Source: DAOVGU01 sp030637775 [NCBI: bacterium] (lineage in GTDB: Bacteria > Ratteibacteria > UBA8468). Taken from it: a stretch of DNA of 9,878 nucleotides. Positions 172 to 9,337 of the stretch are shown here, in pieces. Each line of letters opens with the position of its first letter. Position 1 is the stretch's first letter. The position numbers and the translations under genes were made by a program. The DNA lies in assembly GCA_030637775.1 (NCBI GenBank), contig DAOWFY010000008.1, forward strand, positions 1 through 9,878, read 5' to 3'. Under the pieces are notes generated by a model. That model saw only the letters and a list, made by a program, of their open reading frames with translations, made no database searches and had not been told where the DNA came from.

Positions 172-1272
172 CTATTTCTCCTGCCAGGATGTGACGGAGT
201 AGATCTTGGTGCCGCCAGAGAAAGGTAAATCTATGGAGCCTGATAGATCTAAATACTCAATCGTTGAATCCGTCTCCAACTTAAAAGTTTCGCCAACTAT
301 CGAGCCGTACAAAGTGGAGGTAGTCTCTATCTTGACCTGACCCTTAGGTCCGAAGAGCACAGCATAGCAGGCTGAATCCGTTTCTAATTTAATTGCATCA
401 ATACCGTCATAGTCAGAAAAAAGCCCCACCGCCGTTGCCGCAGAGGAACCCACAACAGAGTTACTCTCCAGCTTTATGTATCCTTCAGCAACAATTATCC
501 CCGGACCAACAATCGTTACTCCATCGCCTTCAAGATTACCATAAATATAGATGATGCCATTGATGGGACTAAGAACGGGTATATTCAGAGTGGCGCCGGT
601 GACGTCCCAGTCTTCATTATGGGTATATCCTACCTCGGTAGCCTTGGTGGCGTAATCAACCATATCAAGGGTAGGCAGGGTTATTTCGTCGGCACTGTCT
701 TGAGAACCTTCGCTGAAAGTTCCGTCACCACTGACGGCTCCGTGTGCCGATCCCGCACCAGTAACGGCGACCCCTTCGTTTATTATATTAGTATTACTAT
801 GCAGATCTCCGGTGATACTAACCGGGGCTTCAACCTTTAAAAGTTCCTTAGTGCAAACTGTATAATCAAAGGCAGCTGCCCTTCCTTTCGTTACTACTTT
901 AACCCTCCTTTTCGCCATTAAGGGGGAACTCGTACTGGGTGTGTAGCCGGTGGCTTCAATTTCAATTACTGGATCGCTAGTCAGGTCGGCCGTAACTGTG
1001 AAATCACCCATTATCTCACCCCCTGAGCTGGAAAAAGAGGTCACAGTTTTGGTAGCGGGGGACCCGCTCCAGCTGGCAATGTTTCCATAGTTCAGTTCCC
1101 AGATAGCCAGCTCTATTCCGGCTTCGGCAAGATTGATGGCAGAGATTCTTCTGTAGGAGCGAAGGGTCAATCTCTGCTCGGATGAGATCATCGAGAGATG
1201 GACCCCTCCTAAGGCAAGAAGAACAGCCATAATAATTGTAACAACAATCAGGATGAATCCCTTCTGGTCCAT
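172..1272 (-). CDS. PilX-like pilus assembly/minor pilin-like protein with repetitive beta-rich C-terminus
   Basis: 366 residues; GGGAG lies 5 bases before the ATG. The N-terminus MDQKG-FILIVVTIIMAVLLALGG resembles a prepilin signal followed by one membrane helix (about 6-27), but the mature Glu5 is absent, as in PilX-type proteins. RRISAINLAEAGIELAIWEL (about 41-60) is the AEAGIExAxxxLN signature of PilX N-terminal domains. The middle has the family's ITGDLHSNTNI (153-163) and a turn-rich region. The C-terminal third shows short repeated strands: IKLESNS (266-272), IKLETDS (294-300), VKIETTS (313-319) and FKLETDS (330-336), with VLFGPKG and GSIVG between. This looks like a right-handed beta-solenoid, as in bactofilin-like or 'polymer-forming' segments. 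It is the last gene of the operon in the window. The role is probably in the pilus tip complex or adhesion; the exact function is unknown. Confidence 0.8.
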   Translation of the reverse strand: MDQKGFILIVVTIIMAVLLALGGVHLSMISSEQRLTLRSYRRISAINLAEAGIELAIWELNYGNIASWSGSPATKTVTSFSSSGGEIMGDFTVTADLTSDPVIEIEATGYTPSTSSPLMAKRRVKVVTKGRAAAFDYTVCTKELLKVEAPVSITGDLHSNTNIINEGVAVTGAGSAHGAVSGDGTFSEGSQDSADEITLPTLDMVDYATKATEVGYTHNEDWDVTGATLNIPVLSPINGIIYIYGNLEGDGVTIVGPGIIVAEGYIKLESNSVVGSSAATAVGLFSDYDGIDAIKLETDSACYAVLFGPKGQVKIETTSTLYGSIVGETFKLETDSTIEYLDLSGSIDLPFSGGTKIYSVTSWQEK

Positions 1273-1311
1273 CTTTCTCCCTTTTAATTTTTTACTTCTG
1301 TATATCTAAGG

Positions 1312-1448
1312 CGAGGAAGTTCCCTGAAGCGTGCCTTGTTACCGACAAGCGGGCACGGTGTCCGCCAAAGGCGGACGAGCGAGGAGCAACGAGAGTGTAG
1401 TTTGCCTCGCTGGGGCAAACAAACGTGCCGCTGAAGGGAACTTCCGAG
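1312..1448. repeat. Palindromic element, copy 1 (intergenic)
   Basis: Ends GGAAGTT...AACTTCC (1315-1321, 1439-1445). It has the same order of hairpins as copy 2: the CTTGT-TACCG-ACAAG stem, GTCCGCC-AAA-GGCGGAC (1360-1376), and GTTTGCC/GGCAAAC (1400-1420). Where the sequences differ in stems, both arms differ together. It fills most of the 181-base gap between the PilW-like and PilX-like genes, starting 6-9 bases after the PilW-like stop. There is no T tract, so it does not look like a terminator. Confidence 0.85.
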
Positions 1449-1453
1449 CCTCC

Positions 1454-2131
1454 TTATTTATTCCGTAACTTAACAACAGAATTTAAGGTTTCTTGATAGG
1501 TTCTGTTCAATCTGGTTCTGCTGGCAGTTAATTCAATGGCAACATAAGTTCCAGCGGAACTAAAGATTAAGGAACTGATATTATTAGCAATAACATTAGT
1601 ATTATCGATTCTGCTGCTTCCGGTACCATAAGCATCCATAATCCTTTCTAAATTGGCTAAATTAAGCTGGTAGATGAGATAGTCATATTCATCGGGAATG
1701 ATATCTCTATTCGTATCTATGGAAGGAATCTCCAGGACGAGGCAGTTAGTTGAAGTGGTATAACCTCCCCAGGCTGATAGCACCTGAGTTGCCCATTTAA
1801 TATCCTTAGACATCCAGTCCAGAGCCAACCTGGCATCGGCGTAAATATCCAGATAGGTTCTGCTGGAATCAAAACTTCGCTGACTGCCTAAGTAGAGAAA
1901 AAGGATTACCCCCAGGATAAAGGAGGCCAAGACCACCGAAACCATTATTTCCACAAGGGTAAACCCTGTTCTTTTTCTCCCCCACAAAGGCTTGGTAGTT
2001 TCCTTTAGGCGTGCCTTGTTACCGACAAGCGGGCACGGTGTCCGAAGGACGAGCGAGGAGGAACGAGAGCGAAGATTTCCTCGCTGGGGAAATCGAGCGT
2101 GCCGCCGAAGGGAACTACCGAGTCTATTCAT
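1454..2131 (-). CDS. PilW-like minor prepilin with a repeat-encoded, abnormally long leader
   Basis: 225 residues from the ATG that overlaps the PilV-like stop (ATGA). The prepilin signal is not at the N-terminus but at RKRTG56-F57TLVEIMVSVVLASF, so the leader would be 56 residues instead of the usual 5-30. Residues about 4-48 are encoded by a palindromic repeat (1991-2122) whose length there is a multiple of three and which contains no stop in this frame. The mature part (about 169 residues) has the hydrophobic N-helix, then RLALDWMSKDIKWATQV (about 101-117), the D/K-rich helix typical of PilW/GspJ-like proteins. NRDIIPDEYDYLIYQL and a beta-rich end (YVAIELTASRTR) follow. A TTG at codon 49, preceded by AAAGGA at 12 bases, would give the conventional leader MWGRKRTG, so the true start is open. 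Function: probably a minor pilin in the tip complex. Confidence 0.8.
   Translation of the reverse strand: MNRLGSSLRRHARFPQRGNLRSRSSSLVLRTPCPLVGNKARLKETTKPLWGRKRTGFTLVEIMVSVVLASFILGVILFLYLGSQRSFDSSRTYLDIYADARLALDWMSKDIKWATQVLSAWGGYTTSTNCLVLEIPSIDTNRDIIPDEYDYLIYQLNLANLERIMDAYGTGSSRIDNTNVIANNISSLIFSSAGTYVAIELTASRTRLNRTYQETLNSVVKLRNK
1991..2122. repeat. Palindromic element, copy 2 (inside the prepilin leader)
   Basis: An imperfect palindrome with ends GGTAGTT...AACTACC (1994-2000, 2113-2119), extendable to 1991-2122 (132 bases, 3x44). Internal hairpins: GTGCC/GGCAC around CTTGT-TACCG-ACAAG (2011-2035), GTCC-GAA-GGAC (2040-2050), and GATTTCC/GGAAATC with a TCGCTGG-like loop (2074-2094). It shares a 36-base identical block (2009-2044) with copy 1. 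It lies after codon 3 of the PilW-like gene and keeps the frame open. Confidence 0.85.
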
Positions 2132-2517
2132 TGCTTATCGATTCCCTCTCGCGTTATTAGCGTGACCAGACTTTTAGTTGAACTTCTGCCCTGAGCTGAG
2201 GTCCAGCTCACCGTTACAGTTACTTTTTTGATATCATCCTCTCCTGCAATATAGGTGTCGTCAACGGTTACCGTACCGACAGGATTAGCGAGATGAGCAA
2301 ATCCGGGAGTGGTAAATGTTCCTCCCACAATGTTATTGAAGGCCATATCTCTGATTAGTTCCATCTCCTCCTGGGCGGCCTGGGTAGCGATAAAAATCTC
2401 CCTTGTCTCGGTGCTAATGCCAAAACCATAAGAAAAGATACTGACGATGCCGATGGAGATGATGATAATGATAAGAATGGTCAGAGTTATCTCAATCAGC
2501 GTAAACCCCTTCTTCAT
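2128..2517 (-). CDS. PilV-like minor prepilin
   Basis: 129 residues. A class III signal is at the extreme N-terminus: MKKG, then FTLIEITLTILIIIIISIGI, so prepilin peptidase should cut after G4 and N-methylate the Phe. Glu5 of the mature protein is present. The hydrophobic helix is about 20 residues. QAAQEEMELIRDMAF (about 46-60) is the alpha1-C segment pattern seen in PilV-type pilins (A..QeemE.ir). The C-terminal beta segment (KKVTVTVSWTSAQGR, then LVTLITREG) matches the V-x-V-x-W...T-x-I pattern of that group. It lacks the cysteines common in pilin C-termini. The likely role is in the minor-pilin complex at the fibre tip. Translation depends on coupling to pilC, with no clear Shine-Dalgarno site. 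The stop TGA overlaps the next ATG (ATGA). Confidence 0.85.
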   Translation of the reverse strand: MKKGFTLIEITLTILIIIIISIGIVSIFSYGFGISTETREIFIATQAAQEEMELIRDMAFNNIVGGTFTTPGFAHLANPVGTVTVDDTYIAGEDDIKKVTVTVSWTSAQGRSSTKSLVTLITREGIDKQ

Positions 2518-3741: not shown

Positions 3742-5559
3742 TCACTCCTCGGAGGTGACGCGCATAACCTCCTCTAAGGTTGTGGTTCCCCTTTTAAAGT
3801 TTTTCACAGCATTATCCCGCAGGGTAGCCATTCCTTTTTCGATGACCTTCTTCTTGATCACATCGGCCGGAGCCTCCTTGATTGCCAATTCCCTAATTTC
3901 CCCATCCATAAGAAAAACCTCAGCCGTAGCCATTCTTCCATAGTAACCGGTCTGATTGCATTTCTTACACCCTTTCCCATGATAGAAAATGGGTTTTTCT
4001 CTCGTGGTTTCCAATTTTACTCCTATTCTCGCCAAAACTTCCTGGGGAATCTCTACCTCTTCTTTACAGGAATCACAGATTTTACGCATTAGCCTTTGGG
4101 CCGAGATCATAATTATTGAGGAGGCAATAAGAAAAGGTTCCACCTGCATATCAATTAGCCTGGTGATGGCGCTGGGAGCATCATTGGTATGAAGGGTAGA
4201 TAGCACCAGTTGTCCGGTAAGAGCGGCCTTCACCGCAATGTCTGCGGTCTCAAAATCTCTAATCTCCCCGATGAGGATGATGTCCGGACTCTGGCGAAGA
4301 ATGGCGCGTAGCCCCTTAGCAAAGGTTAAGCCTATTTCCGGTTTAACGGCAATCTGAGTGATACCGGGAATCTGGTACTCCACCGGATCTTCAATGGTAA
4401 TAATATTACGGTCTGCGGTGTTAAGTTTATTTAAGATGGAGTAGAGGGTAGTTGACTTTCCCGAACCGGTTGGTCCGGTGATGAGAATCATTCCATAGGG
4501 TCTGCTTGTTGCCTTCTCCATTTGCGCCAGTGGCCCGGGCAAAAATCCTAAATCGGATAACCCCAGGGAAAGGCTTGACCTATCCAGGGCACGAAGCACT
4601 ACCTTTTCCCCAAAACTGATGGGTAGCACACTGACCCGATAATCGATCTCCTTCTCTTCCATTTTAACCCGGAATCTTCCATCCTGCGGAAGTCTTCTTT
4701 CGGTAATATCAAGGTTAGACATAATCTTTAATCTGGCACTAATTGCCTGCTGCAGCCGTTTAGGGAGCTCAGTTTCTTCGTGGAGGATTCCATCGACGCG
4801 ATAGCGGAGGCGAAAATCCTTCTCGTAGGGCTCAAGATGAATATCGCTTGCTCTCCTCTGATAGGCTTGAAGGAGAATATAGTCAACCAATTTTACTACC
4901 GGGGTCTGGTCGGCCTCCTTAAGAAGATCCCTTTCCTCAATTACCTCCTCGACCACAACCTCCACCTTTTCCTTCCTTATTTTTCCAATGAGTTCCTCCA
5001 CGCTCTCTTCCGCCATTGATTCAGTGGCGGATTCTGGCAATTCTTTTGCCTCTTCCTTAATTACCTCGACAGACTTCCCTTTAAAATCGGCGGTAAGACC
5101 AGCAAGCATCTTATCCACATCCAATTTCTCCTCTTCTCGAGAATAGGACTTTCTGATGGTCTCGGCAATATCCTTCCTCGTAGAAAGACAATAGCGAATA
5201 TTATAGCCGGTGGTACTCTTAAGGTCATCAATGGCTAAGATATTTAAGGGGTCAGCAGTAGTAATGGTAAGAGTTTTACCAATGAGGGAGATCGGAAGGA
5301 CATTATAGTAACGGGCTGTCTCTATCGGAATGAGTTTAAGAGCGGATGGCTCTGGTTTGATTTTGCTCAGGTCAAGGGAGGGAAGGTTCAAATTTTCCGA
5401 GAGGGCGGATAAAAGATCCTTCTCCGAAATTAAACCTTCATCTAAAAGAATCCTGGAAAGAGGAAGTCTCTTTTGCTTCTGGATAGAGAGGGCTCTTTCA
5501 TAATCCTCTCTTTTGAGGAGATTATTCTTTAAAAGGATTTCCTCTATTTTTTTACTCAT
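3742..5559 (-). CDS. pilB: PilB/GspE-family type IV pilus extension ATPase (intact)
   Basis: 605 residues, full family length. MshEN/T2SSE_N domain at about 1-140, then a long acidic, helix-prone linker (about 140-215, rich in Glu/Lys), then the core beginning at TPVVKLVDYILLQAYQRRASDIHLEP (219-244). Motifs: LPQDGRF (290-296), Walker A GPTGSGKST (362-370), Asp box TIEDPVEY (388-395), Walker B DIILIGEIRD (426-435, Glu 432), His box STLHTNDA (454-461), zinc cysteines 495, 498, 531 and 534. All catalytic residues are present. The hexamer sits at the inner membrane and powers pilin addition through PilC, whose gene follows after 10 bases. The ATG at 5559 has no good ribosome binding site: the palindrome ends 9 bases upstream. 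Type II secretion GspE is an alternative name, but pilT and pilV/W/X-like neighbours favour a type IV pilus. Confidence 0.93.
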   Translation of the reverse strand: MSKKIEEILLKNNLLKREDYERALSIQKQKRLPLSRILLDEGLISEKDLLSALSENLNLPSLDLSKIKPEPSALKLIPIETARYYNVLPISLIGKTLTITTADPLNILAIDDLKSTTGYNIRYCLSTRKDIAETIRKSYSREEEKLDVDKMLAGLTADFKGKSVEVIKEEAKELPESATESMAEESVEELIGKIRKEKVEVVVEEVIEERDLLKEADQTPVVKLVDYILLQAYQRRASDIHLEPYEKDFRLRYRVDGILHEETELPKRLQQAISARLKIMSNLDITERRLPQDGRFRVKMEEKEIDYRVSVLPISFGEKVVLRALDRSSLSLGLSDLGFLPGPLAQMEKATSRPYGMILITGPTGSGKSTTLYSILNKLNTADRNIITIEDPVEYQIPGITQIAVKPEIGLTFAKGLRAILRQSPDIILIGEIRDFETADIAVKAALTGQLVLSTLHTNDAPSAITRLIDMQVEPFLIASSIIMISAQRLMRKICDSCKEEVEIPQEVLARIGVKLETTREKPIFYHGKGCKKCNQTGYYGRMATAEVFLMDGEIRELAIKEAPADVIKKKVIEKGMATLRDNAVKNFKRGTTTLEEVMRVTSEE

Positions 5560-5568
5560 TGCAGCAGT

Positions 5569-5622
5569 AGGGGTCAGGTCTCAACATTTGACAATTTTGT
5601 CAAATGTTGAGACCTGACCCCT
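5569..5622. repeat. Perfect 26-bp inverted repeat filling the gap between two ATPase genes
   Basis: AGGGGTCAGGTCTCAACATT... (5569-5594) is matched without a mismatch by its reverse complement at 5597-5622, with a 2-base TT loop. It spans from the stop codon of the upstream ATPase core to 9 bases before the next start. It has no T tract, so it is not an ordinary terminator. GGGGTCAGGTCT-type ends remind me of dispersed repeats linked to Y1/REP-associated transposases; that link is recollection, not shown here. Confidence 0.85.
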
Positions 5623-6809
5623 TATTCATCGGCGGTGGTAATTCTAAGGATCTCTTCCACGCTTGTCTCTCCCGAAAGAACTTTCCTGATCCCATCTTCC
5701 CGCATCGTCCTCATCCCAAGTTCCCGCGCTTTTTTCCTGATCTCAGATTCCGGCCTCTTCTTCATAATTAATTCTTTAATCTCTCTCTCTAAAGGAATGA
5801 CCTCAATAATCGCTAGCCGGCCTGAATAACCGGAGTTCTGGCAGATGCTGCAGCCTTTTGGCCGGTAGAAGATCTGCTCTTTTTTGGTCTTATTAATCTT
5901 TAAACTCTGCAAGATTTTTTCTCCTGGTTGATACCCTTCTCGGCAATGACGACAGAGTTTTCTCACCAGCCTTTGGGCCACCACCAAAAGCACGCAACTG
6001 GTAATTAAGAAGGGCTCTGCTCCCATATTGATCAGCCTGGTAATTGCTCCCGCCGCATCCATTGAATGGAAACTGGAGAACACCAAATGTCCCGTGAGAG
6101 CAGCCTTGATCGCAATATCTACTGTAGCTGCATCCCTGATCTCACCCACCATAATGATATCGGGATCCTGACGCAGAATTGACCTTAAAGAGCTGGCAAA
6201 GGTCAGTTTAATCGCAGGATTGATTGCCACCTGATTGATACCGGTAATTTCATACTCTACCGGGTCTTCGGTTGAGGTGATATTTACTTCCGGTTTGTCG
6301 ACCAGGTGTAAGAGGGAATAAAGGGTAGTTGTCTTACCACATCCCGTAGGACCACAGATAAGAATCATTCCATGAGGATGTCTTATTGCTTCCCGCAACT
6401 TTCTTACCTCTCTCTGCTCAAAACCAAGTTTTTCGATATCAAACATCAAAGTGCTCTTATCCAGGATACGGAGAGCAATCTTCTCTCCTAAGGAGGAGGG
6501 AATAACCGAGACGCGGAAGTCAACATTTCTTCCTCCCACTCTTAGTTTAAATCTTCCGTCCTGAGGCAACCTCTTTTCGGCAATATTAAGTTTTGCCATT
6601 ACCTTAATCCGAATCAAAAGTTGAGAATGGATTGAGGCGGGTGGATTAAAACCCTCCCTTAAGAGGCCGTCAACACGATAGCGAATACGAAGACTCTTCT
6701 CCAATGGCTCAATTAAGATATCAGAAGCCTTTCTTTTAATTCCCTCAACAAGAATAGAATCGGTCAATCTTACTACGGGATTTTCCTCAATCCCCTTTTC
6801 TATGGCCAT
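5622..6809 (-). CDS. PilB/GspE-type pilus extension ATPase core, lacking its own N-terminal domain
   Basis: 395 residues; family members are usually 550-600, and the missing part is the preceding MshEN protein. The protein opens at ENPVVRLTDSILVEGIKRKASDI, the normal start of the core's N2 domain. It then has LPQDGRFKLRVGGRNVDFRVSV (about 81-102), Walker A GPTGCGKTT (153-161), Asp box STEDPVEY (179-186), Walker B DIIMVGEIRD (217-226, Glu 223) and a tetracysteine zinc motif CRHC...CSIC (286, 289, 320, 323). The His box reads SSFHSMDA (245-252) instead of STLHTNDA, a noticeable departure, although the His is kept. Residues needed for ATP hydrolysis are otherwise present, so the domain looks functional. 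The ATG at 6809 has no Shine-Dalgarno sequence (upstream is A/T only), so expression probably relies on coupling or frameshifting from the upstream gene. Its TAA stop touches a large palindrome. Confidence 0.85.
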   Translation of the reverse strand: MAIEKGIEENPVVRLTDSILVEGIKRKASDILIEPLEKSLRIRYRVDGLLREGFNPPASIHSQLLIRIKVMAKLNIAEKRLPQDGRFKLRVGGRNVDFRVSVIPSSLGEKIALRILDKSTLMFDIEKLGFEQREVRKLREAIRHPHGMILICGPTGCGKTTTLYSLLHLVDKPEVNITSTEDPVEYEITGINQVAINPAIKLTFASSLRSILRQDPDIIMVGEIRDAATVDIAIKAALTGHLVFSSFHSMDAAGAITRLINMGAEPFLITSCVLLVVAQRLVRKLCRHCREGYQPGEKILQSLKINKTKKEQIFYRPKGCSICQNSGYSGRLAIIEVIPLEREIKELIMKKRPESEIRKKARELGMRTMREDGIRKVLSGETSVEEILRITTADE

Positions 6810-7257
6810 CTATATTTTTATAATATTTTTCTATCGCTTTCTTAATCTGGGAGGAAGTAGCGATAAAGATTTTTACCTTATGTTTACTAATCTCTTCTAT
6901 TTTTTTTGTGGTCTCTTCGTCGAAGGGATCGGCCATAATGACCAGAAGAGAATTGTCACTGATATCCACCGGGATGAAACAGTTATCAAGAACTAACTCC
7001 ATTGGAATAAGTTTGATTACTTTCTTATCAATATTATAATTATCTGGAGAAAGGTAGGGGATATTATATTGAGTAAGAATGGCCTCAATAATTTCTTCCT
7101 CGGTAGTATAGCCCAATCTGCAGAGGATCTCTCCGGTTAGACCTCCATCCCGGCGCTGCAAGTAAAGGACCTCCTTCAGTTGCTCTTTGGTAATTATTCC
7201 CTTGGCGATTAAGATTTGACCAATCTTATCTCTTGATATCCGTTCAAATCGAGCCAT
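6787..7257 (-). CDS. Stand-alone MshEN/T2SSE_N domain: N-terminal half of a split PilB/GspE ATPase
   Basis: 156 residues that match only the N-terminal regulatory domain of GspE/PilB ATPases. A double motif of the form (K/R)IGxILIxxGxITxxQLxxxLxxQ (about 11-35) and GEILCRLGYTTEEEIIEAI (42-60) is followed by a strand-rich half (IKLIPMELV, LLVIMADPFDEE) ending at KKAIEKYYKN. MshEN domains bind cyclic di-GMP in several secretion and pilus ATPases; the usual first Arg of the motif is Lys here, so binding is uncertain. There is no P-loop. The next gene begins exactly where the family's ATPase core should begin, in the +1 frame, overlapping by 23 bases at an AAAAGGGG run (6799-6792). The start has AAAGGA just upstream and forms TAATG with the pilT stop. 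This is either a real gene fission, a programmed +1 frameshift, or a one-base indel in the run. Confidence 0.8.
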   Translation of the reverse strand: MARFERISRDKIGQILIAKGIITKEQLKEVLYLQRRDGGLTGEILCRLGYTTEEEIIEAILTQYNIPYLSPDNYNIDKKVIKLIPMELVLDNCFIPVDISDNSLLVIMADPFDEETTKKIEEISKHKVKIFIATSSQIKKAIEKYYKNIDGHRKGD

Positions 7258-9185: not shown

Positions 9186-9337
9186 TGATTCAATGGCGAC
9201 GAAAACCCTGCTCGATAAACCGAGCGACTACAAAAAAATCTGTAGATGCCTGATTTGCTACATGCCTAACCTGAAAAACTGATTACGCATATTGCTACTG
9301 AAGTAAGCAGATAATATAGTGTCGCAATTTATCAGGC
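9186..9337. other. Non-coding gap with a cluster of small hairpins
   Basis: I see no gene in the 234 bases between the small membrane protein and the GGDEF gene (9104-9337). Besides the terminator and promoter listed separately, this part holds short inverted repeats. GCTCG/CGAGC (9210-9214 with 9221-9225) encloses an ATAAAC loop. CTACA (9228-9232) can pair with TGTAG (9241-9245), but that TGTAG can also pair with CTACA at 9258-9262, so the two are mutually exclusive. ATGCC is directly repeated at 9246 and 9262. The structure resembles mosaic palindromic intergenic repeats. It could also be a structured 3' UTR of the upstream unit. Confidence 0.4.

Follow-up and report, generated by a model that had tools for sequence, protein, structure and literature searches.

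Rickettsia offers the best-known examples of palindromic repeats inserted in frame in protein genes, and there is no settled account of how the proteins survive them. The Rickettsia palindromic elements are repeats of 105-146 bp that lie in frame within protein genes, as passages of two reports describe (PMC2229807, PMC10969869), and a passage of the first also notes repeat-ORF fusions with predicted signal peptides for other small repeats. The second point of reference is the type IV prepilin, whose leader is held in the cytoplasm by the positive-inside rule and is cut there by prepilin peptidase, according to sections of PMC4471445 and PMC10191384. Leader lengths of 6-26 residues, and of about 15-30 for type IVb, are given in a section of a review (PMC4471445), and the 18-residue leaders of Streptococcus sanguinis are called very long in passages of PMC10191384 and PMC5389465.

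The locus described here brings the two subjects together. The window, by which we mean the whole 9,878-nucleotide stretch of DNA that was analysed, comes from a poorly known group of uncultured bacteria and holds a PilW-like prepilin gene (hereafter pilW) with a copy of a palindromic repeat of about 140 bp in the frame of its leader. It resembles the Rickettsia case in that short palindromic repeats lie in frame in functional genes, namely pilW in two species and a GspJ-like gene in one of them (G001). It differs in that the repeat is found in an apparently different bacterial lineage, rests mostly at gene boundaries, has no conserved frame and, where it is in frame, occupies a leader that is expected to be removed. 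In-frame palindromic repeats are known from Rickettsia, and what appears to be new is that unrelated repeats have repeatedly made use of a prepilin leader that is cleaved off; among the open-access papers listed in literature searches, no title dealt with repeats in prepilin leaders and no such recurrence was noted. The features of the window on which the argument depends are as follows.

172 to 1272, minus strand: PilX_N-like gene downstream of pilW (Pfam PilX_N 22 bits, below the cut-off of 25.5).
1306 to 1453, minus strand: second repeat copy, between pilW and the next gene (repeat search and covariance model).
1454 to 2131, minus strand: PilW-like prepilin gene, 225 aa, ATG start (ORF, with a Pfam N_methyl match above cut-off).
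1964 to 2131, minus strand: 56-codon pilW leader ending in G56 (sequence, and the N_methyl match to residues 52-77).
1985 to 1987, minus strand: TTG codon 49 of pilW, an alternative start (TTA in the G001 orthologue).
1985 to 2127, minus strand: palindromic repeat copy in the pilW frame (covariance model 160.7 bits; BLAST family).
2128 to 2131, minus strand: ATGA overlap of the pilV stop TGA and the pilW start ATG (ORF list; likewise in the G001 orthologue).
2128 to 2517, minus strand: PilV-like prepilin gene (pilV), 129 aa, with the motif MKKG/FTLIE, the slash marking the cleavage site (ORF).

The label PilW-like comes from gene order: Pfam gives N_methyl only for the product (26.2 bits against a cut-off of 21.2), and the NCBIfam model TIGR02599 reaches 26.3 bits against 256.5, so that the PilW family model is unmatched. 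The PilV-like gene matches no Pfam or NCBIfam family at E ≤ 1e-3. With type IV prepilins that have class III signal peptides the pilW product shares a G/FTLVE cleavage motif, glutamate at +5, a hydrophobic stretch and a basic leader. Cleavage is predicted between codon 56 (1964-1966) and codon 57 (1961-1963), that is, between G56 and F57. The repeat copy begins approximately at the pilV stop codon, at the pilV-pilW junction, and fills codons 5-48. A sequence-only reading of this DNA had proposed that 44 codons of stop-free repeat lie in frame between the ATG at 2131 and the cleavage site; this was borne out by the ORF, by BLAST and by the covariance model, and the ATGA overlap with the PilV-like gene that it reported was confirmed in the window and found again in G001. 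Counted from the only start common to both species, the pilW leader has 56 residues, compared with a published range of 6-26 and up to about 30, and leaders of 56-65 residues set the present cases apart from the usual type IV prepilins. Because leader length differs among systems, a long leader does not exclude membership, and since the leader contains 15 lysines and arginines and 1 aspartate or glutamate, its topology should hold. A motif scan of the loci examined gave no prepilin peptidase gene, and no pilin relative was found on viral contigs.

The repeat is a member of a dispersed family. BLAST found 26 matches in its own 1.40 Mb genome, and DNA matches occur in 5 of 61 genomes, four of them belonging to one bacterial family (f1) and the fifth (G008) being weak, with none in the other 56. 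Covariance-model matches at E ≤ 1e-3 number 35 in the window genome (G000), 45 in G001, 15 each in G002 and G003, and 1 in G008; of these 111, 80 were analysed, those dropped being mostly the weakest, and 79 were placed in the loci examined. With its terminal inverted repeats and dispersed copies the repeat has features of a MITE, and these properties, its size and its predicted stem-loops are shared with ERIC, NEMIS/Correia and RUP. Unlike those elements, it has no established transposase partner or clean target duplication and, at E ≤ 1, no match in Rfam; the passages covered from the literature on MITE-like repeats do not mention prepilin leaders. Being palindromic and intergenic, the repeat is also like REP/RAYT, and a different repeat in these genomes does show a REP/RAYT-like arrangement. 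In contrast to REP/RAYT, however, the eight Y1_Tnp loci (24.8 kb, up to about 1.5 kb per side) contain no copy of the ~140-bp repeat, and RAYT was rejected as its mobiliser as far as close linkage can tell. Also rejected was the view that the repeat is inherently a coding unit, as the pilW frame is open in just 17 of 63 copies; in this it is unlike the coding cassettes reported from Rickettsia. The parallel with Rickettsia drawn in the sequence-only reading stands as regards in-frame position within genes, and gives way where the frame is seldom open and most copies (49 of 79) lie at gene boundaries.

This preference is strong. Thirty-three of the 79 copies begin between -4 and +1 bases from the stop codon of a same-strand gene, compared with 0.41% of 15,800 random positions, and 16 lie beside the start codon of a gene on the opposite strand (0.22% at random; the rule for starts was applied a little more widely to the copies than to the random positions, and the narrow rule gives 15). 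The gene calls behind these counts were made by a simple codon-score script, which missed the true starts of pilW and of the PilV-like gene of G001. Repeats that adjoin or span stop codons are described for other bacteria in a passage of PMC2674063. Given that copies favour gene boundaries, the pilW copy, directly behind a stop codon, is at the usual site of the family, and pilW is affected because its start ATG overlaps the pilV stop. Sites also differ between relatives: the copy at 1306 to 1453 is missing at the same junction in G001 and must therefore have been gained or lost since the species split, a copy at G000:C175:3836 is likewise missing in G001, and a copy in G003:C105 has TGA on both sides at a site that is empty in G002.

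Comparison with a second species bears on whether the pilW copy is read as protein. A search of 61 genomes and a contig scan found a single pilW orthologue, in G001, a second species of the same genus (84% amino acid identity), in which the repeat is present in the same frame. Between the two, codons 5-48 differ at 5 of 132 bases and by no indel, and at codon 2 one sequence is longer by a whole codon. Finding the frame open in a single copy would be unremarkable, given the fraction of copies in which it is open; the same frame without an indel in a second genome therefore argues against a frame open by chance. The mature part differs at 81 of 504 sites, with dN 0.099 and dS 0.558, and is under purifying selection, as expected only of a protein that is used. 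Of the five changes in codons 5-48, three are nonsynonymous, so there is no sign of selection on the repeat-encoded peptide itself. Over the whole span of the model, the pilW copies of G000 and G001 are 92.3% identical with no gaps, only slightly more conserved than four other copy pairs in matching places (C34, C150, C88 and C175b), which show 87.1-90.8% identity with 2, 2, 18 and 24 gap columns; a fifth pair (C47) is only 57.6% alike, with 6 gap columns. The gapless pilW pair fits a copy held in frame, on what are small numbers.

The possibility, raised in the earlier reading, that all orthologues have long leaders of unrelated sequence is not what is seen, since the long leader of G001 contains the same repeat. 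No pilW orthologue lacking the element was found in the 61 genomes and the contig scan. Weak matches to the N-terminal part of pilW in nine other genomes (E 4e-7 to 9e-4) were taken for other prepilins. An ancestral short leader consisting of MNR plus WGRKRTG is accordingly a proposal for a gene of which both known orthologues carry the element.

Two alternatives would place the start of translation elsewhere, and the GspJ-like prepilin gene of G001 (G001:C43) bears on both. This gene (TIGR01711 32.5 bits, below the cut-off of 64.85) has a copy of the same repeat family in a leader of 65 residues, in a frame that differs from that of the pilW copy, and here too an ATGA overlap precedes the copy. 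Its orthologues have no repeat match at that place, and their leaders have 5 residues in G000, 5 in G003 and 8 in G002, so that the pattern of a short leader without and a long leader with the element is found in GspJ. As MIKKG is common to G000 and G003, the short leader is likely to be the older state. In G001 the stretch between repeat and cleavage motif has also been replaced, and the case is for this reason not a clean insertion. The mature part (138 of 171 residues identical to G000, dN 0.109, dS 0.429) is under purifying selection.

The first alternative is that pilW translation begins after the repeat, at the TTG of codon 49, leaving the repeat untranslated and its open frame due to chance. 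This TTG is in frame, the resulting 8-residue leader MWGRKRTG would be ordinary, the frame is open in many copies regardless, and in the window genome the codon could still serve as a start. G001, however, has TTA at this position, so that the TTG, which the sequence-only reading had set against its own proposal, is not a conserved start; neither does G001 have any ATG, GTG or TTG between the repeat and the cleavage site, and the ATG that overlaps the pilV stop is the only in-frame start before the cleavage site common to both species. The GspJ-like gene of G001 similarly has no in-frame ATG, GTG or TTG from the repeat to the cleavage site. Five of the six bases of AAAGGA before the TTG lie in a predicted stem (pairing probability 0.83-1.0), an argument that is weak because GAGAGGG before the ATG is also largely paired in the same fold. 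We consider initiation at the TTG quite unlikely.

The second alternative uses a start codon that lies at the repeat's right end and is out of frame by one base, with the frame restored by a +1 shift or a change in length of a run of five Gs. This start codon is kept in both species despite a differing base (GTG in the window, ATG in G001), and at another copy (G001:C110:4622-4770, locus L068) an apparent ribosomal protein S10 gene, which is how we read it, seems to start right at the ATG of the copy's right end. The same five Gs are nevertheless present in both species, a five-base run is short for slippage, and we know of no +1 slip signal of this kind; in the GspJ-like gene of G001, moreover, the stretch after the repeat offers as starts only an out-of-frame TTG and GTG. 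The probability of this explanation seems to us very small. Translation from the overlapping ATG through the repeat is the reading that we retain, with cleavage after G56 as the inferred next step.

The pilW copy might instead be kept for a role in the mRNA, as a stem-loop controlling pilV-pilW expression, with the long leader a by-product. This would suit the observation that the nucleotides of the repeat are better conserved than the mature part of the gene (differences at 5 of 132 sites in the one, at 81 of 504 in the other), and both-side changes occur in 6 of the 33 predicted pairs of its hairpins; repeats with RNA roles are described in a passage of PMC2229807. The structure was, however, drawn from the same alignment in which these changes were counted, the fold z-score is only -2.15, and homogenisation among copies would explain the conservation as well. 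Being compatible with translation, an mRNA role is also partly complementary to the reading that we retain. The repeat may also act as RNA in the transcript; that this is the reason for which the copy was kept is the most credible of the alternatives considered here, and still doubtful.

The strongest support comes from a survey of prepilin leaders in the four genomes of the family, which contain 82 prepilin N_methyl matches. Leader length, taken from the nearest in-frame ATG, GTG or TTG, was measured for 77, two lying outside the loci examined and three having no cleavage glycine by the rule used; under this rule the pilW leader of the window has 8 residues (from the TTG), and 56 from the ATG. 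The five longest leaders, of 65, 57, 38, 34 and 33 residues, all contain repeat sequence, and in the next longest (31, 27, 26 and 25) neither repeat was recognised. Those of 38, 34 and 33 residues carry a second kind of repeat, in which two GGGACTGTCCC motifs stand 34-44 bases from each other. Such pairs occupy seven places in the four genomes and none in the other 31 genomes of the class; five of the seven are in prepilin leaders, three of these five having been used to find the motif, and beyond motif discovery the count is two of four (rough chance under random placement 4e-6). Two of the five leaders, those of G002:C14 and G002:C159, could be shortened, to as few as 11 residues, by in-frame starts inside the repeat or beyond it; one of these genes is GspI-like, a name given by gene order, and in G000 and G001 its orthologues have 8-residue leaders. 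The long leader in G000:C92 and G001:C41 opens with MKKGFTLI, apparently the former start and cleavage motif standing ahead of the insert, and the two are probably one event. The pilW copies of G000 and G001 were likewise counted as one. At least one prepilin leader is also entered by each of two small palindromes (leaders of G002:C121 and G001:C240): GTGCGATTYATCGCAC, present at 36 places, and GGCAGAGTTYACTCTGC, present at 24, both counts taking all contexts together.

Could repeats in leaders merely reflect the presence of many, tightly packed prepilin genes, with no special tolerance? The number of prepilin matches is large, and the main repeat favours gene junctions anyway. Of the two GGGACTGTCCC places not in prepilin leaders, one is outside any long frame and the other (G001:C257:1443-1499, locus L246) is in frame in a HypF-like gene (TIGR00143, 561 bits), a placement much like that of Rickettsia palindromic elements within genes; in-frame insertion is for this reason not confined to leaders. 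Twenty-two frames are open across one of the 79 copies with at least 50 codons beyond, and the majority have a start codon inside or soon after the repeat. Setting aside G000:C98 (at a contig edge), G001:C269, G001:C213, G000:C55 and G001:C18, the frames judged to need an upstream start are pilW (in G001, and in the window apart from the TTG) and GspJ, all of them prepilins. This, together with the two of four independent GGGACTGTCCC places, argues against this explanation, which we regard as rather improbable.

We propose that palindromic repeats of about 140 bp have spread through this bacterial family and come to rest mostly at gene boundaries, and that one copy landed directly behind the pilV stop codon and hence, through the ATGA overlap, inside pilW in an open frame. 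Translation from the overlapping ATG would run through the repeat and produce a strongly basic leader of 56 residues, which would stay in the cytoplasm and be removed by prepilin peptidase after G56. The mature pilin would be unchanged, which in our proposal is why the insertion was tolerated; that the repeat-encoded peptide is removed we infer from prepilin biology, and low cost would be the reason for the tolerance. A single insertion in pilW would predate the split of the two species and would have been kept since, with the same event in a GspJ-like prepilin and an unrelated repeat in several others. Most probably, then, translation includes the repeat, the additional peptide is removed by cleavage and the insertion is near neutral, and we hold the account as a whole, from junction repeat to recurrence elsewhere, with considerable confidence. 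More generally, and with only a slight balance in its favour, the prepilin leader may be a safe harbour, in which unrelated repeats within one bacterial family have lengthened leaders from about 4-8 to 33-65 residues, sometimes with a fossil of the old start (MKKGFTLI...); in-frame insertions there would cost little because the leader is cytoplasmic and removed.

A removed leader would be a simple and testable answer to how proteins survive in-frame repeats, and because the pattern recurs across prepilin genes, what began as a single curiosity becomes a rule open to checking in other genomes. Prepilin leaders would reach about twice their known length, and some 50-60 extra residues should then be tolerated both in membrane insertion and by prepilin peptidase.

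Several minor observations concern the surroundings of these repeats. Two PilB/GspE-like ATPase genes are adjacent in the window at 3742-5559 and 5622-6809, and a short ORF of its own (6787-7257), in the same orientation, lies immediately upstream of the second. Between them, at 5569-5622, is a perfect 26-base inverted repeat (GGGGTCAGGTCTCAAC...), unrelated to the palindromic family, on which all ten Rfam matches in the window (E ≤ 1) fall; all are sub-threshold microRNA matches, and a known RNA family was rejected. The GGGGTCAGGTCTCAAC motif flanks Y1_Tnp genes on both sides in loci L184 and L186, in a REP/RAYT-like arrangement. The 25-residue leader of G001:C160 has a palindromic look by eye, and some copies of the main repeat adjoin apparent tRNA 3′ ends, as read by eye. 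Another copy, at G001:C41:6377-6518 (locus L150), breaks a gene that is continuous in G000:C3. In a subclass with the left end CATA/RTATGTTCGG (for example G000:C100:499-640), a single base separates the end of the repeat from the ATG of an opposite-strand gene; when G001:C224 is compared with G000 and G002, the repeat seems to have shifted the start codon and altered the second codon. Finally, the window stretch at about 9254-9313 recurs next to a copy in G001:C44 (88% over 60 bases) and looks, by eye, similar to the junction of GspI and GspJ in G000 (G000:C139, locus L091, before 1931). It may represent a further repeat family, placed at the junction where G001 has the palindrome.
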